Source: Crenothrix sp. D3 (GTDB taxonomy: Bacteria > Pseudomonadota > Gammaproteobacteria > Methylococcales > Methylomonadaceae). From it: a stretch of DNA of 64,000 nucleotides. This document shows positions 3 to 14,849 of the stretch, one piece after another. Where the stretch lies: contig MBQZ01000013.1 in NCBI GenBank assembly GCA_002134785.1, positions 1 through 64,000 on the forward strand, given 5' to 3'. The position numbers were made by a program, and so were the translations under genes. The stretch's first letter is position 1; every line of letters begins with the position of its first letter. A model generated the notes under the pieces. That model saw only the letters and a program-made list of their open reading frames with translations, did not search any database and was not told where the DNA came from.

Positions 3-2225
3 AATCTAGCGACCTCGAATTTGAGTGCGACAGGGGGTAATGCCACGGGTTTAACCAACATCAATGCGACCAATGGTAATATCACTAATCTCCTTGGTAC
101 CAACGCTAATTACACCAATCTAGCGACCTCGAATTTGAGTGCGACAGGGGGTAATGCCACGGGTTTAACCAACATCAATGCGACCAATGGTAATATCACT
201 AATCTCCTTGGTACCAACGCTAATTACACCAATCTAGCTACCTCAAATTTGAGTGCGACAGGGGGTAATGCCACGGGTTTAACTAATGTCAATGCGACCA
301 ATGGTAATTTCACCAATATAAACGTAACGGGTGGCTTTACAGCAGGAAATATCACTGCGCTGAATAATGTTTCTGGCATCAATGGTAATTTCACCAATGT
401 GAATGCAACCAATGTTTCAGCAACTAATGGTAACTTTACCAATATAAACGTAACGGGTGGCTTTACAGCAGGAAATATCACTGCGCTGAATAATGTTTCT
501 GGAGTCAATGGTAATTTTACCAACCTGAATGCAACAAACAACATTACAGCAAACAACACCATTTCTGCGCCGAATGGTAATTTTACTAACTTGACTACGA
601 ATAGTATCACCGCGAATAACACGTTCACGAACAACCTGAATGCAACAAACAACATCACGGCAAACAACACCATTTCTGCGCCGAATGGTAATTTTACCAA
701 CTTGACTACGAATATTATCACGGCTAATAACACGGTTACCCGTGACCTCACTGTGACAGGAAATGCGACTTTTAACGGTGTGACTGATGTCAATGGCATA
801 CTGAATCTAACCAATGCTACCGTTATTGGCGCTCTTTCAGATCGAATCATGGGTGATTCAAAAGCACCCTTAAGTTCTAATGGTGTTACGGGTACAAATA
901 CCGTTGTCAATGGAACAGGTGCAGTAATTACTTATAAACAGGCGCTTACTCAAACCGTTGTGGCTAATACGACGATTGGTAATCGACTGACTGGCACGCA
1001 GTATCAGACTAAAGTCGCTGGTAATGAGTTCATAGATGGTAATCTCTATGTCAATGGTGATAGCGCGTTTGTCGGAACGACATCGGCGACCTCAACAGTT
1101 GATGCCAGTAAAAATCTCGCTAGCAGTAAACTTATTAATGCGACAACAGGTGTTATTGGTCAAATAGGTATTACCACCAATACGCCTGTGACTGATGTAC
1201 AAACGGGACTTACTAGCACAGAAGCTGTTGCTTCTGTTACTTTGACGAACGGTTATGGTCATACACATGGTATACAAGTGTTTGAAGATAGAACGCAAAT
1301 AACAGGGGGTACAGCTTCTAACGCATTTACCTTAGACAATAATGCGATTAGTTTATCAGGCAACATTAATGGTGCGCTGGCTAGCAACGGTGTTACGGGA
1401 TTAACTGGGACTGTTGGTGCTGGTGGTGTGTCAGTTCTGACTACAGCGGCGACTGTCGCAGCAGGTACAACGATAGGTGATCGATTAACTGGCGTGCAGT
1501 ACCTTAATGAAATCAATGGTAATACGCTGGTTGATGGTAATTTATATGTCAATGGCGATACTAATTTTGTCGGCAAGAATGGAGCGACTTCAACAGTGGT
1601 CGGTGATCCTGGCACCAGTAAACTAGCCAATGCTAATAGAGGTGTAACAGGGCAAACAGGCGTTGTAATGAAAGGAACACCAGTCGTTGATCCTGTGACA
1701 GGTTTTGCAATTCCTGCCTACGAGTCGGTCGCATCGACTACCTTGACTAACGGTGTCGGTCAAACCAATGGTCTGAAAGTGTACGAAGATAGAACCGAGT
1801 TGACAGGTGGTACACAACAGTCCGCTAAATTAACCATGAACGATAATGGTGCGACCTTTAGTAATTCTAATGGCGCACCTGCAAAAGTCACAGGGGTTGC
1901 TGATGGTACAACGAAGTACGATGCAGTCAACTTTGGTCAATTACAAGGGACAGCAGCTGCGCTATCAGATGATATGAATAATATTGCTCAGCGTGCTTAC
2001 AGCGGTATTTCACAAGCCTCGGCGATGGCTGCTATTCCAGCACCGATGGCAGGACATCATTACTCCGTCGGTATGGGTAGCGGGTTTTATGCGGGTCAAC
2101 AAGCAATTGCCTTTGGTGGTAAAGCGGATGTCGGTGAACATATTCGCTTAAGTGCTGCAATGGGTACTGGCTTTGGTAGCACCAGTCAAATGAGTGCCAA
2201 TACAGGCGCGGCTTTTAGTTGGTAA
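3..2225 (+). CDS. Trimeric autotransporter adhesin (YadA-type), 3' part
   Basis: The gene runs in from the left edge; the frame is open from base 3, so the N-terminus and signal peptide are missing. The visible start is built of 38-residue units (114 bp, at 21-134, 135-248 and a third that diverges from 249). These and the following stretch are full of N-X-T motifs (NAT, NIT, NYT, NFT). Two related modules follow, each with a DGNLYVNGD core and a VYEDRT or VFEDRT core. The C-terminus has the stalk-anchor motif DAVNFGQL and then about 90 residues ending in FSW, which matches a YadA-type outer-membrane anchor. Such proteins are trimeric adhesins that export their own passenger. A terminator follows directly. 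The family call is firm; the ligand is unknown. Confidence 0.85.
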   Translation, partial: NLATSNLSATGGNATGLTNINATNGNITNLLGTNANYTNLATSNLSATGGNATGLTNINATNGNITNLLGTNANYTNLATSNLSATGGNATGLTNVNATNGNFTNINVTGGFTAGNITALNNVSGINGNFTNVNATNVSATNGNFTNINVTGGFTAGNITALNNVSGVNGNFTNLNATNNITANNTISAPNGNFTNLTTNSITANNTFTNNLNATNNITANNTISAPNGNFTNLTTNIITANNTVTRDLTVTGNATFNGVTDVNGILNLTNATVIGALSDRIMGDSKAPLSSNGVTGTNTVVNGTGAVITYKQALTQTVVANTTIGNRLTGTQYQTKVAGNEFIDGNLYVNGDSAFVGTTSATSTVDASKNLASSKLINATTGVIGQIGITTNTPVTDVQTGLTSTEAVASVTLTNGYGHTHGIQVFEDRTQITGGTASNAFTLDNNAISLSGNINGALASNGVTGLTGTVGAGGVSVLTTAATVAAGTTIGDRLTGVQYLNEINGNTLVDGNLYVNGDTNFVGKNGATSTVVGDPGTSKLANANRGVTGQTGVVMKGTPVVDPVTGFAIPAYESVASTTLTNGVGQTNGLKVYEDRTELTGGTQQSAKLTMNDNGATFSNSNGAPAKVTGVADGTTKYDAVNFGQLQGTAAALSDDMNNIAQRAYSGISQASAMAAIPAPMAGHHYSVGMGSGFYAGQQAIAFGGKADVGEHIRLSAAMGTGFGSTSQMSANTGAAFSW
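21..300 (+). repeat. 114-bp in-frame tandem repeat in the adhesin gene
   Basis: Two almost identical 114-bp units start at 21 and 135, and a third starts at 249 and diverges after about 50 bp. Each encodes 38 residues starting LSATGGNATG. The DNA near-identity suggests recent expansion and likely copy-number variation. The array continues past the left edge, so the total copy number cannot be read here. Confidence 0.9.
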
Positions 2226-2375: not shown

Positions 2376-3104
2376 ATGTTAAAGAATCATTTTATTAAGC
2401 AACTGTACAATAGTTTCCTCGATCTCGTGCCGATTCTTGCTGTTGTGCTGGTGTTTCAGGTTCTGATTATTAAACAACCTATTAACGATGTTGCCAGCTT
2501 AATCATCGGCACGCTGTTTGTTGTTTTGGGGTTGGCGTTATTTATTCAAGGGCTGGAACAAAGTCTGTTTCCACTGGGTGAATCAATGGCTTACGCGTTT
2601 GCGCGTAAGGGCAGTTTATTCTGGCTATTGACCTTCGCTTTTTGCTTGGGATTTGGTACAACCGTTGCAGAACCCGCACTGATTGCTATTGCCGCAGAAG
2701 CTGCCGACATTGCCAGCAAAGGTAATATTATTGCTCACAGTAGCGAAGCTAAAAGCAGTTATGCCTTAGGTTTGCGTATCACGGTTGCCTTATCGGTTGG
2801 CTTTGCAATTTTAGTCGGCGTGTTAAGAATTATCCGTGGCTGGCCATTGTATTACCTCATTATTGGCGGCTATTGCGGCATAATTCTCATCACCCCCTTC
2901 GCACCTGCTGACATTATCGGTATCGCTTATGATTCAGGTGGCGTAACGACTTCTACGATTACCGTTCCATTAGTTACTGCGTTAGGCGTGGGTTTAGCAA
3001 CGGCGATTAAGGGACGCAATCCGATGATAGACGGTTTTGGTTTAATTGCGTTCGCCTCATTAACGCCCATGATTTTCGTCATGGCTTATGGAGTCATACG
3101 ATGA
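2376..3104 (+). CDS. DUF1538 membrane protein, first subunit
   Basis: This 242-residue, very hydrophobic protein has about seven predicted membrane spans. It shows the DUF1538 signatures: AEPAL in a glycine-rich stretch (about residue 100) and [20 protein letters not shown] (about residue 188). An AAGGAG ribosome site lies 11 bp upstream of the ATG. It overlaps the next gene, a second DUF1538 protein, by 4 bp (ATGA). From memory, a DUF1538 pair from Halomonas (UmpAB) was reported as a two-component cation/proton antiporter; I infer a similar ion-transport role. Membership of the family is firm, the function is not. Confidence 0.75.
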
Positions 3105-3880
3105 TTGCGTGGTTGACGCATTTTGCTTTAGCCCTGTTGGCAACCTGCCGCGATGTATTACCGATTGCGGTGATTATCATCGGTTTTCAATTGCTGGTGA
3201 TTCGTAAACCCTTAGCTAATCCTAAAAAAACTGCGATTGGTTTTGTCTATGTGTTGTTGGGGATTGCTTTTTTTCTCGAAGGGCTGGATATGGCGTTGTT
3301 TCCACTGGGAAAATTAATGGCTAAGCAATTGACTAGCGCGGAATTTTTGGGTATTAACCCGCATGAATATGTTCTGAGTTGGCAAGCGTATTTCTGGGTG
3401 TATGTATTTGCTGCGAGTATTGGTTTTGCAACGACCTTAGCCGAACCCTCTTTATTAGCAGTGGCAATTAAAGCTGAACAAATTTCAGGCGGCACCATTC
3501 AAGCATGGGGTTTACGCATTGCGGTTTCTATTGGCGTGGCATTTGGTATTGCATTGGGGACGTTCCGCATTGTTACGGGCATAGAACTGTATGTTTTTAT
3601 CGTTATCGGTTATGTGCTGGTGCTGATACAAACACTATTCGCGCCTAAATTTATCATTGGTTTGGCTTATGATTCAGGTGGTGTAACAACTTCAACCGTG
3701 ACCGTACCGTTAGTCACTGCATTAGGTTTAGGCTTGGCGCAAGCAGTTCCTGATCGCAATCCATTAATAGATGGTTTTGGCTTAATTGCTTTTGCCAGTT
3801 TATTCCCTATTATCACTGTGTTAGGTTACGCACAACTTGCCGCGTGGCGTAGTAAGCGTAGTCTTTCCTCTAAATCTTGA
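3101..3880 (+). CDS. DUF1538 membrane protein, second subunit
   Basis: This 259-residue integral membrane protein is a paralogue of the upstream gene. It shares the AEPSLLAVA motif (about residue 117) and the block [20 protein letters not shown] (about residue 190). It overlaps both neighbours by a few bases, which implies translational coupling and a 1:1 complex. The shared block suggests duplication of one ancestral half-transporter. The next two genes encode a P-II-like and a CBS protein, which in other transport systems sense nucleotides, so the pair is probably a regulated transporter. The substrate is not visible from sequence; a monovalent cation is my inference. Confidence 0.75.
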
Positions 3881-3888
3881 GTGAAATT

Positions 3889-4239
3889 ATGCACTTTAAA
3901 TTAATTATTGCCTTCGTTGAAGACGACAAAACCGATTTGGTACTGGATGCAGCGCGTGAAAGCGGCGCGAAAGGTGCAACGGTGATTAATCATGCGCGTG
4001 GTGAAGGCATGAAACAATCGAAAACTTTCTTTGGCTTAACACTCGATACACCGAGAGACGTATTATTGTTTTTAGTTGAAGAACGTTTAAGTCGCCATAT
4101 TTTAGAAAAAATCGCCAAAGCAGGGGAGTTTGATAGTAAAGAAGGTGCAGGGATTGCCTTTAAAATTGATGTTGAGGATGCGATTGGTATCACGCAACAA
4201 GTGGAAAAATTAACTCAAGAATTGGTCAATGAATTATGA
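3889..4239 (+). CDS. P-II-like signalling protein
   Basis: This protein of about 116 residues has the P-II fold pattern: strand FKLIIAFVED, helix VLDAARESGAKGATVINHARG with the T-loop region after it, then LFLVEERLSRHILEKIAKAGEF. It lacks the classical GlnB uridylylation context, so it belongs to the P-II-like group linked to transporters. A TTG start at 3877 is possible, but the ATG at 3889 gives the usual MHFKLIIA beginning. It overlaps the CBS gene by 4 bp. P-II-like proteins usually bind a nucleotide and gate a membrane partner; here the DUF1538 pair is the obvious partner (inference). Confidence 0.75.
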   Translation: MHFKLIIAFVEDDKTDLVLDAARESGAKGATVINHARGEGMKQSKTFFGLTLDTPRDVLLFLVEERLSRHILEKIAKAGEFDSKEGAGIAFKIDVEDAIGITQQVEKLTQELVNEL

Positions 4240-4640
4240 ATGAGCCAAAAATTATTCGTGTTAAAGACGTGATGAAATCATCATTTTCGCGTATAGAAGC
4301 AACTGCCACTATCAGTGACGCGCTAAAAGAAATGAAAGCGGCAGGGACATCGGTATTAATTGTTAATAAGCGTCATGATGATGACGAGTACGGTATGATT
4401 ACCTCAGGCGATATAGCGCGGCAGGTGCTGGCAAAAGACCGCGCTCCTGACAGAGTCAATGTTTATGAAATTATGACTTGTCCCGTGATTCAAGTGCGTC
4501 CTGAGATGGATATACGCTACTGTTCACGGTTATTTGCAACTTATAATTTGGTGCGTGCGCCTGTAGTCGAACATGGAAAAGTCATCGGCATGGTGAGTCC
4601 TAATTCACTGGTATTGGATGGTTTATATCAAATCTGTTGA
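4236..4640 (+). CDS. CBS-domain pair protein
   Basis: This protein of 134 residues is made of two CBS motifs. The first covers about residues 8-65 (VKDVMKSSFSRIEATATISD, then YGMITSGDIARQVL) and the second about 75-132 (VYEIMTCPVIQVRPEMD, then VIGMVSPNSLVLDGL). A CBS pair forms a Bateman module that typically binds AMP, ATP or a related nucleotide. It starts in the ATGA overlap with the P-II-like gene and is the last gene of the DUF1538 operon, so it is likely a second nucleotide-sensing subunit of that transporter. An inverted repeat follows 10 bp after the stop. Confidence 0.8.
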   Translation: MNEPKIIRVKDVMKSSFSRIEATATISDALKEMKAAGTSVLIVNKRHDDDEYGMITSGDIARQVLAKDRAPDRVNVYEIMTCPVIQVRPEMDIRYCSRLFATYNLVRAPVVEHGKVIGMVSPNSLVLDGLYQIC

Positions 4641-4682: not shown

Positions 4683-6485
4683 TCAAGCGTTTTTTAACCC
4701 ACACGTCACAACGCCTTCCCTATTTAAACCAAATCGTTCCATTTTTTTATAAAGTGTTGTACGAGTAACTCCCAATTTTTTAGCTGCCAGTGAGATATTG
4801 CCGCCGCAATTTTTAAGCGTGGTTTTGATACCGTAAAACTCCCAATCGGTTAAACTCATAGACACCGATTCATCTATCCGTGGATTAACAAAGTGAGTGT
4901 TACCCAAATTAAATTGCTGTATTTCAGCAACAAAATCAATTGGCAAATCCTGTAAGTTAATGACTGAGCCACTTGCCGTATAAAAAGTAGAGCGAATGAC
5001 GTTAATTAATTGGCGAATATTGCCTGGCCAAGGATGTTGTTCAATTAAACTGATGACTTCTGGAGAAATTTGTAGCCGACCATCGTCGGCAATGGTGTTC
5101 ATTTCTCGTTGTAAAATATGATGAATAATTGACTTTTTATCAGGGCGGTCGCGTAAGGGTAATAAATGAATCTGCGCGCCATTTAAACGATAATACAAAT
5201 CACGCCGAAAGCGACCTGCTTCAACCGCTTCCAATAACTTTACATTGGTTGCTGCAACCACTTGCACATCAACGTGAATAGATTTATTACCGCCAACTGG
5301 CATAAATTCAGAGGTTTCTAGCACACGCAATAAGGTGGATTGCAAATCAAAACTCATGTCGCCAATTTCATCAAGAAACAAAATACCTTTGTCAGCCAGC
5401 ATGAATTTACCCAGCTTACCGCTTGATTTTGCTCCCGTAAAACTGCCTGATTCATAACCAAATAATTCGCTTTCAATTAAATCACGCGGAATGGACGCGC
5501 AATTAATGGCGATAAGTGGTGCGTCTTTTCGTGGCCCTGCTTCTCTTAGCAATCTAACAAAATGATCTTTACCTACGCCTGATTCGCCCGTAATTAAAAT
5601 CGGTACTTTGTAATGCTGTAACTTGACGGCTTTTTTAATGAGCGCGTCTAATTCTGTGGAAATCTCTGAATTATTCAGCGGCAGCGGGATTTTTTTGGCA
5701 GGATTAAAGTGAATTTTTTCCAATACCCGTTCTTGTGCTGCTGTATTTTGGGCTAAAGGCAAATTGGTATTTACCAGTACACAAATTAAATGCAAAAACG
5801 CAAACAGCGAATTCATACTTTCTTGGTAATCGCTGATTAAACCAATGATGGCGATTAATTCCCCCGCCTCATTAAGCAACGGGTAGCCCACGGTAGTAAA
5901 GGGATGTAGCACATTGAGGAAATGTTCCATGCCTTGAAAGGCAACGGGTTTTTTAAGGATAGCTGTTGTGCCGATGCCGTTGTTGCCTAAAACCGATTCA
6001 GACCACACGCTCCCTGCAAGGTGCATTTGCGTCATAAAGGTATTCGGTAATTTTTGTTCACCTAGTGCATAAAGTAATCTGCCATCGGCAGTGGTTAGCA
6101 CCATCATCATGCCTGCGTCTTGCAAAGCAGTATGAAAGTTGTTGCTAAGGTGTTTAATGAGTTCTTTGATGTGCGTGGCTGGATTAGCCTGTTCAACAGG
6201 TGCCGCGATAATGGGATAGTCGTCCCAATTAGCGTAATGACCTAACGGTAAATGATAGTCATCAAGACACCGTTCCCACGCATCCCTGACTTCGGGTCTA
6301 ACCCAATCGTGTTGCTCAGGAACAGAGCGGGTTTGATTCATCCATTGCCACGCTTGTATGGGTCTATCTATTTCAAATTCAACCCTGTGTCTAAGCAATA
6401 AGGTTTCATGGATTAGCTTTATTTTGTGCGGTGATTTGAGTTCTATATCCATTTTCACTCTATTATTTTGGTGTTGAAACATCAT
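4683..6485 (-). CDS. mmoR: MmoR, sigma-54-dependent activator of sMMO
   Basis: This 600-residue enhancer-binding protein has an AcoR/FhlA-like GAF region (about 100-235, with WSESVLGNNGIGT) and an AAA+ domain. Walker A is GESGVGKD at 300-307, the sigma-54 contact loop is GSFTGA at 347-352 (a variant of GAFTGA), and Walker B is GILFLDEIGD near 367. A Fis-type helix-turn-helix lies at about 563-585 (GNISLAAKKLGVTRTTLYKK). In other methanotrophs MmoR activates the sigma-54 promoter of mmoX, and such a promoter is present here at 14834-14849. It lies behind mmoG but beyond a strong terminator, so it likely has its own promoter. The mmoQ/mmoS genes are not next to it. Several in-frame ATGs near the start leave the N-terminus uncertain by about 12 residues. 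Confidence 0.9.
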   Translation of the reverse strand: MMFQHQNNRVKMDIELKSPHKIKLIHETLLLRHRVEFEIDRPIQAWQWMNQTRSVPEQHDWVRPEVRDAWERCLDDYHLPLGHYANWDDYPIIAAPVEQANPATHIKELIKHLSNNFHTALQDAGMMMVLTTADGRLLYALGEQKLPNTFMTQMHLAGSVWSESVLGNNGIGTTAILKKPVAFQGMEHFLNVLHPFTTVGYPLLNEAGELIAIIGLISDYQESMNSLFAFLHLICVLVNTNLPLAQNTAAQERVLEKIHFNPAKKIPLPLNNSEISTELDALIKKAVKLQHYKVPILITGESGVGKDHFVRLLREAGPRKDAPLIAINCASIPRDLIESELFGYESGSFTGAKSSGKLGKFMLADKGILFLDEIGDMSFDLQSTLLRVLETSEFMPVGGNKSIHVDVQVVAATNVKLLEAVEAGRFRRDLYYRLNGAQIHLLPLRDRPDKKSIIHHILQREMNTIADDGRLQISPEVISLIEQHPWPGNIRQLINVIRSTFYTASGSVINLQDLPIDFVAEIQQFNLGNTHFVNPRIDESVSMSLTDWEFYGIKTTLKNCGGNISLAAKKLGVTRTTLYKKMERFGLNREGVVTCGLKNA

Positions 6486-6788: not shown

Positions 6789-8474
6789 TTATAATCTGGG
6801 GTCTTCGCGCGTTGCTGCTGCCCATTCTGGCGAATAACCAGCCATAATGGATAAGTCGGGGACATTCATCACTACGGCTTCGGTGGTGATTAACGTTGTT
6901 ACCACGCTCACTGCATTGCGCAATGCCAAACGCATGACTTTCACTGGATCAATAATGCCGATGTCCAAAAAATTGCCGTAAAGTTGTCGTTGCGTATCAA
7001 TGGTTAAATGCTCATCGTCACTGGCATTTAAGCGAGCAATAACAGTTTCTGGATTCAATCCTGCATTGCGCGTGACACTTTCCAACGGTGCAACCAGTGC
7101 CAATTTCAGAATATTAATGCCCTGTTGTTGCTCGGCATTTTCGGCAATCACGCTATCAAGCATTTTGATACAACGAAACAACGCGACACCGCCGCCTGCC
7201 AGTACGCCTTCTTCCAGTGCGGCTTTAGCCGACATATAAGCATTTTCTATGCGCACCATGCGCTCTTTGATTTCAAAATCAGCCAGACCGCCGACACTGA
7301 ACACGCCTGTTTTAGCGGCTAATAGTGCAATACGATCTTCTAATTCGTCAAAATCGTGTTTATTGCCTGAGGCTGAACCTTCGCCGGGTTTTATTGCCAG
7401 AATAAAGTCGGCTTGGGCGCGTAGTGTCTCAATGCGTTGTTTAGCAAGTTGTTTATCACCTTTCGCACCGATGATGGTAATGCTGGTTTCTGTAACGACG
7501 ACGCGTTCTGCTTGCCCCAGCATATCCAAAGTAACGTGTTCTAATTTTGGGCTGCTGTAATCATCTAAAATCGCCTGTCCGCCTGTTAATAAAGCCAAAT
7601 CTTTGAAGCGGTCAAGTCGTCTATCACCAAACCCAGAAGGCTTAACGGCAACGACTTTAAACACGCCCTGCGTCAGATTGAGCAATAAGCCCGTCAAGGC
7701 TTTATCAATGACATTTTCGGCAATAATGAGCAATGAGCGTCTTTCTGCTCTGACTTCTTCCAATATCGGAATTAAATCCATTAAATCCTTGATTTCCCGG
7801 TCATAGAGCAGGATATACGGATTATCGAGTACCGCTTCTGCACGGGTTTTATCGGTAATAAAATACGGTGATAAATAACCTTGTTCATAGTGTATGCCAT
7901 CGACAATAGCCAGTTCATCTTCGCGTCCATTGCCCAATTGAAAAGTGAGTTGACCTTCAAGTCCCAGCTCGTTCAGAGCGTGAGCCAATAATTGTCCTAC
8001 TTTGGGTTCATTCTTAGTGGCAACCGCCGACATTTTTTCAATCCAATCGTCGGTTACGCCTGTCACCGCTTTATCCAACAACCGTTTTTCCACCAGAGCC
8101 AACGCTAAATCCAAGCCTTTTTTCAATTGCAAGGGATGAAAGCCTGCTGCGACACTACGCACGCTTTCATGAGCCAATTTTTGTGCCAACACAATAGCCG
8201 TGGTTGTACCGTCACCGACTTGTCGAGACACTGCGCCTGCCACATCACGCAACATTCGCGCCCCCAAATCAGCGATTCGATCATCAAAATTAATTGATCT
8301 GGCAACCGTTACGCCATCGCGGGTAAACACAGGCATAATGCCAGCGGTACGATGCTGAATCATCACCGCAGGGCCTGCACTGCCCATCGTCACAATAGCC
8401 GCGCGTGCCACACTGTCAATGCCGTATATCATTCTCGAAAGAGCTTCGGGATTATAAATAATTTGTTTGCTCAT
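6789..8474 (-). CDS. mmoG: MmoG, GroEL-like chaperonin of the sMMO cluster
   Basis: This 561-residue group I chaperonin homologue keeps the ATPase motif GDGTTTA (about residue 87) and the equatorial block LEEGVLAGGGVALFR (about 415). It is longer and more divergent than housekeeping GroEL. The C-terminus ends REDPRL instead of the usual GGM tail, and no groES is adjacent. In M. capsulatus and Methylosinus the equivalent gene beside mmoR is needed for sMMO expression, possibly by folding MmoR or the hydroxylase. It begins 18 bp after the 98-residue gene and is probably cotranscribed with the mmo genes; a strong terminator follows. The ribosome site is weak. Confidence 0.92.
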   Translation of the reverse strand: MSKQIIYNPEALSRMIYGIDSVARAAIVTMGSAGPAVMIQHRTAGIMPVFTRDGVTVARSINFDDRIADLGARMLRDVAGAVSRQVGDGTTTAIVLAQKLAHESVRSVAAGFHPLQLKKGLDLALALVEKRLLDKAVTGVTDDWIEKMSAVATKNEPKVGQLLAHALNELGLEGQLTFQLGNGREDELAIVDGIHYEQGYLSPYFITDKTRAEAVLDNPYILLYDREIKDLMDLIPILEEVRAERRSLLIIAENVIDKALTGLLLNLTQGVFKVVAVKPSGFGDRRLDRFKDLALLTGGQAILDDYSSPKLEHVTLDMLGQAERVVVTETSITIIGAKGDKQLAKQRIETLRAQADFILAIKPGEGSASGNKHDFDELEDRIALLAAKTGVFSVGGLADFEIKERMVRIENAYMSAKAALEEGVLAGGGVALFRCIKMLDSVIAENAEQQQGINILKLALVAPLESVTRNAGLNPETVIARLNASDDEHLTIDTQRQLYGNFLDIGIIDPVKVMRLALRNAVSVVTTLITTEAVVMNVPDLSIMAGYSPEWAAATREDPRL

Positions 8475-8492: not shown

Positions 8493-8789
8493 TTAATTTA
8501 GAACACACAACATTAATGTATGGCCCACTTTCACTCGCGTATCATGGGTACGAGAACTATGCGCCCACACACGAATCAGTGATCTGTCCCAGTAATCCAG
8601 CGTGATTCTGAAAAATTTCTCTTCTTCCTCAGATAACGCTTGTTGCCAGAACTCTTTTAATTCCTCAACACGAACAACCCCCAGTTTTTCAGTGATTTCG
8701 CGTTCTTCAATCGCTAACTTTCTAATGGTTTCATCCAGTTGTATGACCATGTCATGGAGAAACGCTTCGTCTTCGGGCTTTATGCTCAT
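8493..8789 (-). CDS. Unrecognised 98-residue protein in the sMMO cluster
   Basis: I do not recognise this protein. Its first 60 residues are strongly charged and look helical, possibly a short coiled coil (LDETIRKLAIEEREITEKLG). The second half is less polar, with FFRITLDYWDRSLIRVW and a C-terminus VKVGHTLMLCVLN. There is no signal peptide or membrane span. It lies in line with the BLUF gene (37-bp gap) and mmoG (18-bp gap) on the same strand, so it is probably part of the same transcript. No clear Shine-Dalgarno sequence precedes the ATG, which leaves some doubt about the start. It could be a small partner of the BLUF protein or an sMMO accessory factor; this is speculation from position only. 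Confidence 0.6.
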   Translation of the reverse strand: MSIKPEDEAFLHDMVIQLDETIRKLAIEEREITEKLGVVRVEELKEFWQQALSEEEEKFFRITLDYWDRSLIRVWAHSSRTHDTRVKVGHTLMLCVLN

Positions 8790-8826: not shown

Positions 8827-9252
8827 TCAAAAGAAAAGTTGATGCTTAAATTGATCCAAAACTGCCTCGGCTTCACTGGCACGCTCCATAAAAAACGCAG
8901 GCGTTGGATTATTTAAAAAATTCGTGTAACCATCAACAGCTTCGATATTCGTATCGTCAATTTTATTAAAACCCATCGTCCAATCTGCAAAACCTCTTTG
9001 TTGAATAGGTTTTTTATAAACCAATAGCAAACCACTGTGCCGTGCATCTTTTGAAATAGTGTCAAATAAGGCTTCGATGTCTTTTAACGCACCTTCAAGT
9101 GCCTGCATAAAAAATCCGTCTCGGTACAGCAACATCCCTGTAATATCCAACGTTTCATTTTTCGCTCGCGCTTTTTGGAGCATAGACTTTAGATGATCAT
9201 CAGACATCTCTTGATTTGCTAAGCTGACATACACCAGACAATGTAGTGACAT
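8827..9252 (-). CDS. BLUF-domain blue-light photoreceptor
   Basis: This 141-residue single-domain BLUF (sensor of blue light using FAD) protein keeps all key residues at canonical positions: Tyr8 (LVYVS), Asn32 (KNETLDITGMLLY), Gln50 (FFMQALEG), Trp91 and Met93 (FADWTMGF). The pattern DARHSG near 69 also fits the family. About 40 residues of C-terminal cap follow; there is no attached output domain, so signalling would go through a partner protein. The ribosome site AAGAGGGG is strong. It lies between mmoC and mmoG, within the sMMO cluster and on the same strand, behind a possible weak terminator. The family call is firm. A role in sMMO control is inference from position. Confidence 0.92.
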   Translation of the reverse strand: MSLHCLVYVSLANQEMSDDHLKSMLQKARAKNETLDITGMLLYRDGFFMQALEGALKDIEALFDTISKDARHSGLLLVYKKPIQQRGFADWTMGFNKIDDTNIEAVDGYTNFLNNPTPAFFMERASEAEAVLDQFKHQLFF

Positions 9253-9295
9253 TTTAATCCCCTCTTATAATGTTAATTACTTGTGTTAAATTCGC

Positions 9296-9335
9296 TAAAA
9301 GAGGTCACGCACTATCATGTGACAGACCGACCTCT
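9296..9335 (-). terminator. Possible weak terminator or attenuator between mmoC and the BLUF gene
   Basis: On the minus strand AGAGGTC pairs with GACCTCT over a 22-base loop that can form its own short stem (GTCAC with GTGAC), followed by only TTTT. It may reduce read-through from mmoC into the BLUF, 98-residue and mmoG genes. Confidence 0.4.
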
Positions 9336-9348
9336 GTGTGGCTATTGT

Positions 9349-10386
9349 TTAAGAACCGCTAGGTAAAAACTTTTCTAAATACACCCGTTCTTTTGGAATG
9401 CCTAAGGTTTCGCAGACGTTGAACGTTGCATCGACCATACCCGGAGGACCGCATAAATAAATGTCTGGTTTCGCGCCCGTTTCTGTTAGATCACGGCGTA
9501 AAATATCGACCACACTGCCTTTCTCGTAACGCCATTCATCACTGCATTTCCATACGCAGTTTCTCAGTTCCAAGGTCTTCATTTCTGAAGCCAATTTTTC
9601 CAACTCATCAAGGAAAAATATTTCTTCTTCCGTGTTTACACCGAAATAAATGATACATTTCTGCGGCTCATCCCACTGGTGCATATGTCTGACCATCGAC
9701 AAAATCGGTGCAAGTCCTGTGCCGCCTGCCACAAAATAACGCGGCGTAAAGCCATTTTCTTTTAAGCCGAAAATACCTGACGCGCCTTTAACGTTTATTT
9801 TTTGTCCAACGTGAGCCTCGTTTTTCAAATACGTTGAAAACTTGCCACCCTCGACCACACGAATTAAAAATTCTAATTCACCTTTTTTATTAGCGGTGTT
9901 AGCAGGGGAATACGAACGGGTGGTTGTAGTATTAGGAATTTCTAAATCAAAAAACTGTCCCGATTCAAATTTGATTTGCTTGTCATCGCCTGTGCGATTT
10001 AATAACAAACGCATGACGTTACTGGATACTTGAGACACGCCAACAACTTCCGCCTCAAAAGACAAACCTTCTGGCGAAAAACTGATACGTTCGTAAACAT
10101 AAGGTACTTCGACCTCAATGTCGGTGCTGGGATAACAACGGCATAATAAAACTTCGCCCGCCTCTTCTTCTTCATAAGGTAGAGCTTGCGAACTCACTTT
10201 CCCTAAAACGTAATCACCTTCCGTACAGAGTCCTTTACAAGTGGCGCAACCGCCTTCACGACAGGAGGACATTAAATAAATATCCTGCCGTACCGCCGCG
10301 CTGATAACGTCTTCATCCGAACGGCATTCAAATGTGACCGACTCGTCATCCTGAGTAATAATTGTGACTTGGTGTGTGTTTGCCAT
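9349..10386 (-). CDS. mmoC: sMMO reductase MmoC
   Basis: This 345-residue NADH-dependent reductase passes electrons to the diiron hydroxylase. An N-terminal plant-type 2Fe-2S ferredoxin domain has cysteines 42, 47, 50 and 82, the same numbers as M. capsulatus MmoC. It is followed by an FAD-binding domain with RSYSPANT and an NAD-binding domain with [11 protein letters not shown] and YLCGPPGM. An AGGAG ribosome site precedes the ATG, which begins 3 bp after the mmoD stop. It is the last of the six core genes. Confidence 0.97.
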
Positions 10387-10389
10387 TAG

Positions 10390-10659
10390 CTACAACTCCT
10401 GTGCTACCGTATTATTTTTATTATTCATGTTAAAAAATGCCATCACATGATTGACTGCCCGTTTTGACGCGTCTAAGGTCAATGAACAGCCTTCTTGAAC
10501 CAGCTTATTGTCGCGGTAAATAGTCCACCGCCACATAAATTCTAAATCTTCGGTGTAAGCCGTATAAGGCTCTGCATCATAGAGCTTAGTGAGTTCGGGA
10601 TTTTCATCCTGAATGTCATGATTTTGTGCAGGTGACGCGGTATTTAATGCTTCTAACAT
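10390..10659 (-). CDS. mmoD: MmoD, sMMO accessory protein
   Basis: The protein is short and carries the diagnostic MmoD segment YTAYTEDLEFMWRWTIYRD followed by LVQEGCSLTLDASKRAV, which closely resembles MmoD (formerly OrfY) of M. capsulatus. MmoD binds the hydroxylase and takes part in the copper-dependent switch between the two methane monooxygenases. I place the start at the ATG at 10659 (89 residues). The frame is open to a TTG at 10716, but that start falls inside a palindromic repeat and is unlikely. No good Shine-Dalgarno sequence precedes either start. The mmoZ-mmoD gap is unusually long because of the palindromes. Confidence 0.88.
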   Translation of the reverse strand: MLEALNTASPAQNHDIQDENPELTKLYDAEPYTAYTEDLEFMWRWTIYRDNKLVQEGCSLTLDASKRAVNHVMAFFNMNNKNNTVAQEL

Positions 10660-10693
10660 GGCGTGGTGTGTTTGTTTATATAGAGAGAATGTG

Positions 10694-10768
10694 TAGATTG
10701 GGTTGGCAATAGCCAACCCAACAAAACCCAGTAGTTTTAGGTTGGGTTGCCAAAAAGTGGCAACCCAA
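10694..10768. repeat. REP-like palindrome pair between mmoZ and mmoD
   Basis: Two hairpins stand in tandem. TTGGGTTGGC pairs with GCCAACCCAA (10698-10721, loop AATA), and TTGGGTTGCCA pairs with TGGCAACCCAA (10742-10768, 5-base loop). The TAGGTTGGGTTRGC core is shared with the palindrome at 18767-18845. In the mRNA it forms two stable hairpins directly upstream of mmoD. Confidence 0.85.
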
Positions 10769-10776
10769 GCGACAAC

Positions 10777-11274
10777 TTACTGTAAGGTAATGACTTTTAC
10801 GCCACGTTTTTTACGCAATTCCTCTAACGGCAAAGCGTAGTAATCCGTGTTTCTCAGTTCCATTAACTTAGTACCTAGCAGACGATCAGTGTCCAAAAAG
10901 ACATTGACAGGCATAACAGGTGGTTTGCACGCCAATCTAAAGTCAATATGAATTCTTTCCGCTTTGTACATATCAGTACAGGCATCCATTTCAGCAACGA
11001 CTTTATCAGCCATTTCTTGAGCATTCGCGCCACAAGTACAGTTGTTCATAAACTGTGTATCGTTGAACGCAGCACGTTTTAACAAGGCGACTTTTTCTTC
11101 GATTTTGCACTCAATCCATTGACCATCAAGCTCTAAAGACCAGTCGGTTTTAAAAGGATTTAAGTGTTTAACACGAAAATCTTTTAATAACGCATGACCT
11201 GCGGCTAATGTGGTCAGTGCGGCGATTTTTTTAACCCATTCGTCACGAGTGGGATTATCATGAATGTTAGCCAT
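10777..11274 (-). CDS. mmoZ: sMMO hydroxylase gamma subunit MmoZ
   Basis: This 165-residue small subunit of the (alpha-beta-gamma)2 hydroxylase matches the family in length and in blocks such as DEWVKKIAALTTLAAGHALLKDFR and RLLGTKLMELRNTDYYALPLEELRKKRGV near the C-terminus. A clear AGGAG ribosome site lies before the ATG, 9 bp after mmoB. It has no cofactor of its own and stabilises the hydroxylase. Confidence 0.96.
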   Translation of the reverse strand: MANIHDNPTRDEWVKKIAALTTLAAGHALLKDFRVKHLNPFKTDWSLELDGQWIECKIEEKVALLKRAAFNDTQFMNNCTCGANAQEMADKVVAEMDACTDMYKAERIHIDFRLACKPPVMPVNVFLDTDRLLGTKLMELRNTDYYALPLEELRKKRGVKVITLQ

Positions 11275-11283
11275 TGTTATCTC

Positions 11284-11709
11284 CTATGCTCTTGCAACGT
11301 CTTGCAGTTTGACATCAAGACCCATCAATTCTGATGTGATAGTGAAGGTTTCATCCAGTGTATAAGCACGACCGATAGTAGAAGAAACATCCACCAACAA
11401 ATCATAAACACTGTAACTTTTCCCTAACAACTCAGAGACTTCACGGCAATCAATTTCAATTTTGCCATTCGCTTTCAGCCACCAGAAACCAGCGCGATCT
11501 TCTACGATTAAGGTTGGGTTTTGGGCTTTATGAGAACCCAGCAGAATTTCTTCAACAACGGTGTTGAGTTCATCTGATTTTTTTAATACTAAAACCACCG
11601 TATCACTTTCATGAACGACTTGATTTTCTTCCGCGAAGTATTCATCAGCAAAGGCTTTGCCTGTTTTTTGCATGATGCCCGCGTTATACGCATTTGCACT
11701 TGTAGACAT
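11284..11709 (-). CDS. mmoB: sMMO regulatory (coupling) protein MmoB
   Basis: This cofactor-less protein of 141 residues, the family's normal length, binds the hydroxylase and controls substrate and oxygen access to the diiron site. Recognisable segments are HESDTVVLVLKKSDELNTVVEEIL and a core with VEDRAGFWWLKANGKIEID. The gene lies between mmoY and mmoZ with gaps of about 9 bp. An AAGGAAT ribosome site precedes it. Confidence 0.96.
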   Translation of the reverse strand: MSTSANAYNAGIMQKTGKAFADEYFAEENQVVHESDTVVLVLKKSDELNTVVEEILLGSHKAQNPTLIVEDRAGFWWLKANGKIEIDCREVSELLGKSYSVYDLLVDVSSTIGRAYTLDETFTITSELMGLDVKLQDVARA

Positions 11710-11718
11710 AATAATTCC

Positions 11719-12897
11719 TTATTTAAGACCAGATAACACGGTTTTAATCATTGCCGCAGTGTCCACTTTATAGCCGATAGGATCAGCGTAATCACGTTGC
11801 CAGTCATCAAATACACGACCCAAAGCCGCTTCGATAGCCGCTTTATCAGATACACCTGCGATGGTCGGAATTTTAGAGAAAATACCCATAAAATCCTTCA
11901 TTGCGTTGACTGTTCTCGGCAACCATTTGTCGCTCCACATATTCATCAAACTGACGTTGTAGTCACCAAAGTTTTCATCCGCAGCCAAACAAGTGTGAAA
12001 CATATCTTTAGTGATACCTTTCGTTTGTGAATGGTACAACTGCATTTGATTGATGAAGAACGGTGTTAAGTTGTCGCCGTAATACGAAGATAATCTCAAG
12101 AAGAATTCTCTACGCACAAATTGACCGAATAACGGATCGTAAATCATGTGACCTGCGAACAGAATTTCGTTCCAGTCATAAGTGCCTTGCCAGATTTCTT
12201 CAACGGTTTCTCTTGCACCTTTATAGATTGAACCTTTCGTCCACTCATTTTTAGGCACATCAGTTGATTCGTCAAAACCAGGAACCAATTTAGCCAAAAA
12301 CGTTCTTTCTGCTTGAATCATTTGCGCGTTATCGACTTTATCCAAGCCAATCATCGCAATACTCATACGCAGCGTATCACCCAAACAATCACGAGTCGGA
12401 GACGAGTGTGAGTTGAATAAGCCATATTCACTGAAACCGAACGCGCCTAAATAATCACCCAGCACTTCATCACGCCAGACAGGATCAATAGAACGCACAT
12501 GACCATCAGCCGAATAGGCTTTCAAAAAACGGTCGGTATAACGCCATTCTTCTGCTTTGTCTTTCACATACAGCGCGTGCCAGCGGAAAGCGGGATCACG
12601 GTGTCTGTGCCAGTCAGAACTGTGCATTTCAGTCGATTCATTACTCCAAGATGGACGACCGCCGTGAAATTTTTGCGTCCAATCACCCCAATCCAAACCA
12701 CCTGGAATCCAGTCGGGTGTGGGTTGTGTATAGCAACACAAGGTTTCATATTCATTAATCCGCTTACCGCGCGGTGTCATGAAATAGTTCATCTTGCGTT
12801 GTGTTTCTAAAGGTTTATCTGGAATAGCGGCTAAAATTACTTTCGCAATTTCTGGATCAGTTAAACCGCGTCTACCGCCACCTACTACAATTGACAT
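11719..12897 (-). CDS. mmoY: sMMO hydroxylase beta subunit MmoY
   Basis: This 392-residue beta subunit belongs to the ferritin-like family but lacks the diiron ligands. Typical blocks are RRGLTDPEIAKVILAAIP at the N-terminus and LDWGDWTQKFHGGRPSW and HRDPAFRWHALYVKDKAEEW further in. An AAGGAG ribosome site sits at the usual distance. It is separated from mmoX by 81 bp, which holds an inverted repeat. Confidence 0.97.
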   Translation of the reverse strand: MSIVVGGGRRGLTDPEIAKVILAAIPDKPLETQRKMNYFMTPRGKRINEYETLCCYTQPTPDWIPGGLDWGDWTQKFHGGRPSWSNESTEMHSSDWHRHRDPAFRWHALYVKDKAEEWRYTDRFLKAYSADGHVRSIDPVWRDEVLGDYLGAFGFSEYGLFNSHSSPTRDCLGDTLRMSIAMIGLDKVDNAQMIQAERTFLAKLVPGFDESTDVPKNEWTKGSIYKGARETVEEIWQGTYDWNEILFAGHMIYDPLFGQFVRREFFLRLSSYYGDNLTPFFINQMQLYHSQTKGITKDMFHTCLAADENFGDYNVSLMNMWSDKWLPRTVNAMKDFMGIFSKIPTIAGVSDKAAIEAALGRVFDDWQRDYADPIGYKVDTAAMIKTVLSGLK

Positions 12898-12978: not shown

Positions 12979-14562
12979 TTACAATGCTTTCAAAGGATCA
13001 GCAAAGACACAGCCAATCTTTTTGATGTCATCTAAGGTCCACAATCTGCCGTCTTTGCTGGTGTGTGGTTGAGCAATCAAGGTAAAACCATCACTGCGTA
13101 CGCCGTGTCCTTCGGCAATCACTTCTGATAACTCACGACCTTCGTATTGTTCAAAGATGTTTTGGCATTCATAACGCTCTGGTTCAGACAACCACATACG
13201 CTCGCCCCATTGGTCGCTGAACGAATGTTTTTTGCCATTGAATTCAAGAACGCGCAACGTGCTTGCACCTTTAGAATAGCTAGGGCAGAACGGTACTTGT
13301 GACACGCGGTCTATATAAACAGGATGGTTGTTTTCGATAAACCATTGGATAGGTAAAAAGCCGCTGTTGGGATCTTCACAACCACGCGCACGCCATTCTT
13401 CATAAACTACGCCGTACATATCGTACCAACCAGGGTAATTCGCTTCGTACCATTCCGCTTCTTCAGCAGTTGGCAGAGTCAAACGAAAAAAGCCAGTTGG
13501 CCATAAGGCATAAGCAATTAAAAATAAATCGTGGTGCGCCCAGTAAGCGTCTTTTTTGGCATCGCGTAAGCTGGCAGGTGATTCAACACCGTATTTGCCT
13601 AAACGACCAATCCAGATACCGCCCCAATCTTCATACACCCAACGATTCCAAGTTTTTACCCAAGGCTCAACTTTGAAATGTGAACCGTACTCAAACATCA
13701 TGCCCAATACAGGCGTGAAGTATTTTTGTTGCGTCCAGAAGGCATTGTTTAAATCGGTGTTCAAATATTTTGAAGCTGCTTCGTCATTAGCAATTGATAC
13801 GACTGTTTGATAGCCGTTTGCCATGTGACGTAATTCATCGGTTTCAATTGACAGAAACACCGTTGGAGTCATTTCATCGCCGTTTGCAGAAGCCCATTCG
13901 GTGACTGCAACGATAAGCGGGTTAGTAAAGCAAGCCTCACCGACCAACTGTAAGTTGATAGAACACTCAACCGCATCACCTGAAATGAAGCCGTCAGAAA
14001 ATACCCGTTTCATGCCTTTCCATAAAGGCCCAATAGCACGAGTACGACGCGCATCGTTATGACCTGCCGCGTCCTGACCTTGTTTAGCGAAATAATAATT
14101 GATGTAACCGCATTGGTTAGTGTGACGAATTTCATCTAACACTTGACCTAAATAACCATTTTTTTGCTCAGGCGCAGTGGCTGAATCCCACAACATACCT
14201 GTCGCAGCAATCGCGTTATACTCACCGACTTCCAAAAAGTTAGAAATAACTTTCATGGACTCATTCCATTTCGGATGCACACGGTTAGCGGCATCAACAC
14301 GAGTCAATACGTCTTGCAAGCTACCAAACTGACGTTCGTCTTTAACTGATTCCATACGCGCATATTCTTTAGCGATTAGCTTGAACTGCTCTTTGGTATC
14401 ATTCGCCATTTTGTATTTGGTCGAATATTTAGTGCGGTTTTTATCAAAATCCCAAGTAAAGCTTTGTAACCAGCGGTGAACTTCTTGCGCCCCTACGCTG
14501 ACTGGCGCGTGATTAACGGCTAGCGCGTCCGTTGCTGCTTTTGTTGCTGCACTTATAGCCAT
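12979..14562 (-). CDS. mmoX: sMMO hydroxylase alpha subunit MmoX
   Basis: The catalytic subunit is 527 residues, the same length as in M. capsulatus Bath. All diiron ligands fall at the same numbers: Glu114, Glu144 and His147 (DEIRHTNQCGY), Glu209, Glu243 and His246 (ETDELRHM). Active-site Cys151 and Thr213 are also present. It oxidises methane to methanol with O2 and electrons from MmoC. A GAGGTAG ribosome site precedes the ATG. The gene is first in its operon, about 260 bp downstream of the inferred sigma-54 start site. The enzyme looks fully functional. Confidence 0.99.
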   Translation of the reverse strand: MAISAATKAATDALAVNHAPVSVGAQEVHRWLQSFTWDFDKNRTKYSTKYKMANDTKEQFKLIAKEYARMESVKDERQFGSLQDVLTRVDAANRVHPKWNESMKVISNFLEVGEYNAIAATGMLWDSATAPEQKNGYLGQVLDEIRHTNQCGYINYYFAKQGQDAAGHNDARRTRAIGPLWKGMKRVFSDGFISGDAVECSINLQLVGEACFTNPLIVAVTEWASANGDEMTPTVFLSIETDELRHMANGYQTVVSIANDEAASKYLNTDLNNAFWTQQKYFTPVLGMMFEYGSHFKVEPWVKTWNRWVYEDWGGIWIGRLGKYGVESPASLRDAKKDAYWAHHDLFLIAYALWPTGFFRLTLPTAEEAEWYEANYPGWYDMYGVVYEEWRARGCEDPNSGFLPIQWFIENNHPVYIDRVSQVPFCPSYSKGASTLRVLEFNGKKHSFSDQWGERMWLSEPERYECQNIFEQYEGRELSEVIAEGHGVRSDGFTLIAQPHTSKDGRLWTLDDIKKIGCVFADPLKAL

Positions 14563-14833: not shown

Positions 14834-14849
14834 AGCAATGACCGTGCCA
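14834..14849 (-). promoter_or_regulatory. Sigma-54 (-24/-12) promoter of the mmo operon
   Basis: On the minus strand the sequence reads TGGCAC, five bases, then TTGCT, a perfect match to the RpoN consensus. The start site would fall near 14823, leaving a leader of about 260 nt to mmoX. sMMO operons in other methanotrophs are driven from RpoN promoters by MmoR, which is encoded here too. Confidence 0.88.

Follow-up and report, generated by a model that had tools for sequence, protein, structure and literature searches.

The window, the stretch of 64,000 nucleotides analysed here, carries the sMMO cluster of Crenothrix sp. D3 on its minus strand, in the order mmoX, mmoY, mmoB, mmoZ, mmoD, mmoC, a gene for a BLUF-type blue-light receptor, mmoE, mmoG and mmoR. 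mmoX (12979-14562) gave no NCBIfam match and was assigned by the Pfam family PF02332, its position and the family-wide synteny. mmoY (11719-12897, NF045802), mmoB (11284-11709, NF045804), mmoZ (10777-11274, NF045805), mmoD (10390-10716, TIGR04550) and the sMMO reductase gene mmoC (9349-10386, NCBIfam NF045803, 553 bits) each match the family given. The GroEL-like chaperonin encoded by mmoG (6789-8474) is recognised by both Pfam and NCBIfam. The last gene, mmoR (4683-6485), is named by position and class and encodes a sigma-54 activator of the Fis type, whose N-terminal 275 aa match no Pfam family at E values up to 1 and contain no recognised sensor domain. Four genes at 2376-4640 of the plus strand adjoin mmoR and encode a pair of membrane proteins of similar appearance, a P-II-like protein (Pfam match) and a protein that is CBS-domain-like by appearance. 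A very repetitive ORF of 734 aa at 21-2225 (+) resembles, also by appearance, a trimeric autotransporter adhesin.

The gene preceding mmoG (8493-8789, minus strand) encodes an all-helical protein of 98 aa and is termed mmoE, or orf1, by position rather than by comparison with a reference sequence. The name and place are those of orf1/mmoE of Methylomonas methanica MC09, and the gene is reported for some species (PMC9324122). All 70 clusters of the order in which both mmoC and mmoG can be seen contain it. The AF2 model of MmoE consists of two long and two short helices (pLDDT 90), and a fold search of this model against the PDB returned no significant match. Tandem copies of mmoE (4944-5252 and 5474-5782 of the turned locus) are present in L073 of genome G115, in which the mmoC frame is shortened.

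The BLUF gene within the cluster

The BLUF gene (8827-9252) starts with ATG on the mmo strand, is separated from mmoC upstream by 96 nt and from mmoE downstream by 37 nt, and encodes a protein of 141 aa of the short PixD/BlsA type. The sequence-only reading had located it between mmoC and mmoG on the same strand; the strand is as described, while mmoE intervenes and the immediate order is mmoC-BLUF-mmoE. The identification as a canonical BLUF protein is borne out by Pfam, in which the protein matches PF04940 over profile positions 1-92 of 92 with an E value of 4.2e-30 (104.2 bits against a cut-off of 25). This is its sole Pfam match, so that the protein is single-domain and has no second output domain. 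Tyr8, Asn32, Gln50, Trp91 and Met93 are placed as had been proposed; we take them to be the photocycle residues in PixD numbering, which agrees with the alignment to Tll0078. All five are invariant in the 20 sMMO-linked copies discussed below (two alignments of 18 copies each, jointly covering the 20) and also in an alignment of 17 other short BLUFs. Compared with these 17 proteins, C5, L11, M49, A51 and K81 are lineage-specific, and P116, E127, E129, A130, H137 and Q138 in the C-terminal part are near-invariant, unlike in the other short BLUFs.

The best PDB match by sequence is TePixD Tll0078 (E value of 7e-15), followed by other BLUFs. An AF2 model, obtained with a 35-row alignment (mean pLDDT 77.8), displays the ferredoxin-like beta-alpha-beta fold, and its best PDB match is likewise Tll0078 (TM 0.82, 29% identity). 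Photoactivated cyclases come next in the fold ranking, and the next short BLUFs in it are Slr1694 and BlsA. The C-terminal helices (110-114, 118-121 and 125-136) are in the less confident part of the model, with pLDDT of 58-71 per block; for the C-terminal part as a whole the range is 48-71. From these sequence features, the protein is predicted to be photoactive, i.e. it would bind FAD and show a red shift of 10-15 nm.

PixD works together with PixE. The protein resembles PixD (TePixD Tll0078; Synechocystis Slr1694) in being a single-domain BLUF, ~140-150 aa in length, with C-terminal helices and the same numbering of the photo-residues. In contrast to PixD, no response-regulator gene is present among the cluster genes identified, and the BLUF gene is situated in a catabolic cluster. 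It is also similar in length and fold to BlsA of Acinetobacter baumannii, another short BLUF (6w72, TM 0.80). Whereas BlsA is described as a global regulator (PMC6595428), the lineage described here is linked to sMMO in every genome that has it. The cluster itself has all core parts of the mmoXYBZDC-mmoE-mmoG(-QS)-mmoR arrangement in order, and differs from it in two ways: an additional BLUF gene stands after mmoC, ahead of mmoE, and mmoQS are missing, as they are from the clusters seen outside genus g38.

The mmoC-BLUF spacer of 96 nt (9253-9348, minus strand) contains a terminator-like hairpin at ~9300-9335 and a purine-rich stretch before the start codon. Spacer length varies between 31 and 476 nt across 17 clusters, and the value for Methylotuvimicrobium buryatense 5G is 476 nt. 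When folded against 200 shuffles, 10 of these spacers have z values between -1.6 and -4.0 and three window-like ones between -1.0 and -1.3 (window, -1.3), and four are unstructured; a terminator scan limited to loops of 3-8 did not have the window hairpin among its matches. The hairpin may lower the expression of BLUF-mmoE-mmoG relative to mmoX-C. A sigma-54-type promoter match lies at 14834-14849 (-), 287 nt before mmoX, and such matches precede mmoX in 48 of 71 stretches, in both cases uncorrected for chance matches; none of the 17 mmoC-BLUF spacers contains one. A sigma-70 scan yielded no minus-strand match in the window spacer, its total being no higher than in shuffles. We infer that the BLUF gene is presumably read through from the mmoX promoter and made together with sMMO.

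Distribution and evolution of the sMMO-linked BLUF lineage

The comparison covered 311 genomes of the order, of which 64 have mmoY above the curated cut-off and at least 154 have a BLUF of any kind. Seventy stretches were fetched around mmoY matches; an above-cut-off match of G190 was left out, as were low-scoring matches, which are likely other diiron monooxygenases. Addition of the window and removal of L133, which ends in mmoY, resulted in 70 clusters with mmoC and mmoG. An intact BLUF gene is situated between mmoC and mmoE in 17 of them; all 17 belong to the window's family, f1, which contributes 58 of the clusters, and the 12 clusters of f4 have none. An alignment-based search of the 311 genomes returned 20 matches of at least 247 bits in 19 genomes and added G068 and a second cluster of G100, both with the BLUF gene between mmoC and mmoE. 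The total is thus 19 of 72 readable clusters, all from one family, and in each of them the gene has the same position and direction. The search across the order that had been proposed finds the arrangement to be recurrent rather than confined to one genome. A one-genome accident or an assembly artefact is ruled out by its occurrence in 19 genomes. The remaining match is a second copy in G122, ~330 nt beyond mmoR. The next-best matches score 220 bits (G285, beside anthranilate synthase genes) and 194 bits or less. Carriers belong to genera g1, g4, g13, g18, g20, g21 and g26, and also to g11 by way of the G100 contig, for which mis-binning is possible. Three genomes (G285, G210 and G100) have two sMMO clusters each, and in G285 and G100 one cluster is with and the other without BLUF.

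A scan of a named genome collection with two peptide patterns of this lineage, and hence silent on other BLUFs near sMMO, e.g. in alphaproteobacteria, gave 42 loci, of which 17 (L134-L150) have the sMMO-linked gene. These include Methylotuvimicrobium buryatense 5G (L149), Methylobacter psychrophilus Z-0021 (L143) and two Lac Pavin MAGs. The available stretches around the other 25 loci, some of them short contigs, contain no mmo genes, and a plasmid search returned no close relative of the BLUF gene. The sequence-only reading knew of no published description of the arrangement. Searches for BLUF, photoreceptor or blue light together with methanotrophs or sMMO likewise found none among the open-access papers listed, as judged from titles and the beginnings of abstracts.

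The BLUF gene is under purifying selection, as read from its sequences. Nei-Gojobori dN/dS values are 0.049, 0.074, 0.088, 0.093 and 0.099 in the five pairs with usable dS; dS was saturated in two further pairs, the pair G000-G286 (G000 being the window's genome) gave 0.127 with almost no changes, and the value of 0.298 for G000-G285 is inflated by a recombination patch. Together with the low dN/dS, the constant position and direction of the gene in 19 of 72 clusters argue for an association beyond chance.

The presence of the gene is clustered but patchy. On a quick sMMO tree of six joined proteins from 70 clusters, constructed without G068 and the second G100 cluster, presence requires 11 changes against a shuffled mean of 15.4, and 2 of 500 shuffles were as low. 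The closest empty sites are clean, with mmoC-mmoE gaps of 15 nt (G284) and 3 nt (G100) in place of the 96 + 426 + 37 nt of the window. Decayed remnants of the gene were observed in the mmoC-mmoE gap of G233 (L085), where only the C-terminal end is left, and of G066 (L082), where the frame bears an in-frame internal deletion. Patchy presence, two remnants and clean empty sites indicate that the BLUF gene is optional, and 53 of 72 clusters without it, together with at least two decays, show that sMMO does not need it.

The BLUFs of G218 and G203 are sisters whereas their sMMO clusters are far apart on the tree, which points to a probable transfer of the gene from one sMMO lineage to another, again into this slot. 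A patch spanning ~9036 to 8790 (window positions) has been replaced in L135 and L136, and both flanks are nearly identical to the window. The resulting mosaic gene, observed in L104/L136 (G285) and L135/L208 (G100), has a window-like first half and a second half from another BLUF lineage. An assembly chimera in G285 is unlikely, as the same mosaic occurs in two separately binned records, L135 and L136. On a BLUF tree of 68 rows, without two partial rows and six duplicates, the sMMO-linked copies need 3 changes. They fall on one side of a branch in 0 of 200 bootstrap trees, with the long-branch rows L062, L151 and L153 inside, and the AU test does not reject a single sMMO-linked clade (p = 0.147, or 0.243 without the second G122 copy).

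Patchiness and replacement by recombination would also be expected of a general photoreceptor that controls other functions and is a mere passenger in the sMMO cluster. Among the matches listed, 10 of the 19 carrier genomes have other BLUFs, and the related BLUFs examined have unrelated neighbours that vary from locus to locus, which fits such a passenger as well. Against it, 19 of the 20 members of this lineage occupy one slot and the 20th stands beside mmoR, whereas the related BLUFs examined share no context: sMMO genes are present at none of 12 other related BLUF loci opened, two of which hold other sigma-54 activators. Furthermore, the sMMO-linked copy is the only BLUF in 9 of the 19 genomes among the matches listed. 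We consider a passenger role improbable; the lineage is found only at the sMMO cluster and would be an optional regulatory part of it.

Relation to the flavin sensor MmoS

MmoS of Methylococcus capsulatus, which binds FAD, is a flavin sensor tied to sMMO. The kinase gene and the response-regulator-like gene beside mmoG in L072 correspond, by place and domains, to mmoS and mmoQ of Methylococcus. No mmoS is present in the cluster of the window, and the sequence-only reading had accordingly suggested that one flavin sensor takes the place of the other. This idea does not hold up, and we regard it as highly improbable. The window's genome encodes a full-length MmoS homologue elsewhere (1193 aa, contig C103:25856-29299, unlinked to sMMO) with 57% identity over residues 11-1146 and 1349 bits. 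Among the genomes with the sMMO-linked BLUF, 4 of 19 encode an MmoS homologue that scores 1100 bits or more and begins no later than residue 20, against 7 of 38 among those without it (Fisher p = 1); if every MmoS match below 1e-200 is counted, the figures are 8 of 19 and 13 of 38, respectively (p = 0.57). These counts comprise 57 genomes, namely the f1 genomes with mmoY, minus G190 and plus G068. MmoS is moreover a PAS-PAS-GAF hybrid kinase of ~1180 aa in the Methylococcus-like genome G030, unlike the BLUF protein, and the two are not alternatives to each other. Beside sMMO, MmoS of orthologue level was observed in no genus other than the Methylococcus-like g38; G284, which has no BLUF, has a weaker hybrid kinase near sMMO (348 bits). 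We also note a second, partial MmoS homologue in G000 (contig C39:16125-18857, 50% identity). The link of light to sMMO that had been suggested along with this replacement is itself a plausible possibility.

Proposed mode of action and biological meaning

In BLUF proteins, blue light shifts the hydrogen-bond network of FAD, which involves Tyr8 and Gln50. The same shift would occur in the sMMO-linked protein and would lead to rearrangement of the C-terminal helices, which in turn would alter the binding of a partner in the sMMO system. A photoreceptor without an output domain must pass its output through contact with another protein, and lineage-specific C-terminal residues would be expected if that interface is dedicated. 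The most likely partner would be MmoR, contacted in a light-dependent manner, and light would thereby tune sigma-54-dependent transcription of sMMO in the manner of a feedback, with the cluster already being expressed. The sign of the effect is a guess, i.e. light would lower sMMO, which would fit the light inhibition of methane oxidation discussed for lakes. Photoactivity, cotranscription, MmoR as partner and the sign are what we infer here. Tentatively, and with rather less than even confidence, we favour a blue-light receptor of the PixD/BlsA type that is dedicated to sMMO and tunes its sigma-54-dependent transcription, most likely via MmoR.

The choice of MmoR draws on BlsA: under blue light this protein binds AcoN and lifts the repression of the acetoin genes, and its partner regulator in Acinetobacter is annotated in the sigma-54-activator class (PMC6595428). 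By this analogy, MmoR, which belongs to the broad class of the BlsA partner and has 275 initial residues without a Pfam match, would be the first candidate. mmoR follows mmoG in 15 of 19 BLUF clusters (14 of 17, plus G100). In two BLUF-carrying genomes of genus g4, mmoR is found outside the cluster, ~190 kb away on the same contig in G067 (C25:18299-20083) and on another contig (C287) in G068. Both G067 and G068 retain the BLUF gene between mmoC and mmoE despite the distant mmoR, which argues mildly against MmoR as the partner. No mmoR was found in the fragmented genome G065 at 1e-120, and the contig of G285 ends after mmoG. BLUF distances correlate with those of MmoR at 0.66, against 0.65-0.73 for MmoX, MmoY, MmoE and MmoG (16 of 17 clusters), and no gene stands out. 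Per-column association with BLUF presence is highest for MmoR (14 columns over 0.25) and high for MmoD and MmoE, in a comparison that is confounded, with variable or gappy alignments and MmoR missing from 3 of 17 BLUF clusters.

The same observations bear on a light receptor that is dedicated to sMMO and acts after transcription, by binding MmoE, MmoG, MmoC or a part of the hydroxylase and gating assembly or activity. MmoE, MmoG and MmoC are nearer neighbours of BLUF than MmoR is. The gene immediately precedes mmoE-mmoG, a pair contained in all 70 clusters that show mmoC and mmoG, and MmoG is a GroEL-like chaperonin; as a downstream gene of the cluster, BLUF would be present only when sMMO is made; and it is with mmoC, mmoE and mmoG that it stays in G067 and G068. 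The precedent among short BLUFs, in contrast, acts on DNA-binding regulators (PMC6595428), and BLUF distances track MmoE and MmoG no better than the catalytic subunits. Such a post-transcriptional role is conceivable though unlikely. A BLUF-fold protein dedicated to sMMO that senses redox state, temperature or FAD supply instead of light is rather improbable: sMMO does employ a flavin reductase and BlsA responds to temperature too (PMC6595428), but Y8, Q50, W91 and M93 are invariant, and some loss would be expected were light irrelevant.

Some short BLUF genes elsewhere lie near other sigma-54 activators. The window's genome contains a second short BLUF gene (contig C37, L210:8064-8636, minus strand) located 0.6 kb before the sigma-54 activator gene rtcR on the same strand and divergent from rtcB; the chance for a random point to fall within 1 kb of any of the nine activator genes in this genome is ~1%. 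In G187 (L219) a related BLUF is ~3 kb from a sigma-54 activator, and most other relatives opened have unrelated neighbours. A rhodopsin search in 8 genomes gave no match, and its control was likewise without match.

The known switch of sMMO is copper (PMC6189053), and a conserved light receptor in the cluster would bring in light as a further input to a process that curbs the release of methane from lakes. Daytime or light inhibition of lake methane oxidation has been discussed (PMC7474682, PMC12211021); in the passages considered, sMMO and the particulate enzyme are not told apart, and PMC7474682 describes a light effect as unproven in its own lakes. If the dedicated receptor does gate sMMO by light, it would provide a molecular cause for some of the reported inhibition. 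Genetic tools exist for M. buryatense (PMC9324122), and with the BLUF gene present in strain 5G the question is open to settlement in the laboratory. It is possible, though we hold it somewhat doubtful, that the gene constitutes an exchangeable blue-light gate on sMMO, a specialised lineage that is handed on among sMMO lineages and is lost or reacquired according to the light climate. Read from the sequences, the presence of an sMMO-only BLUF lineage within the cluster suggests that light may tune methane oxidation in some methane-oxidising bacteria.
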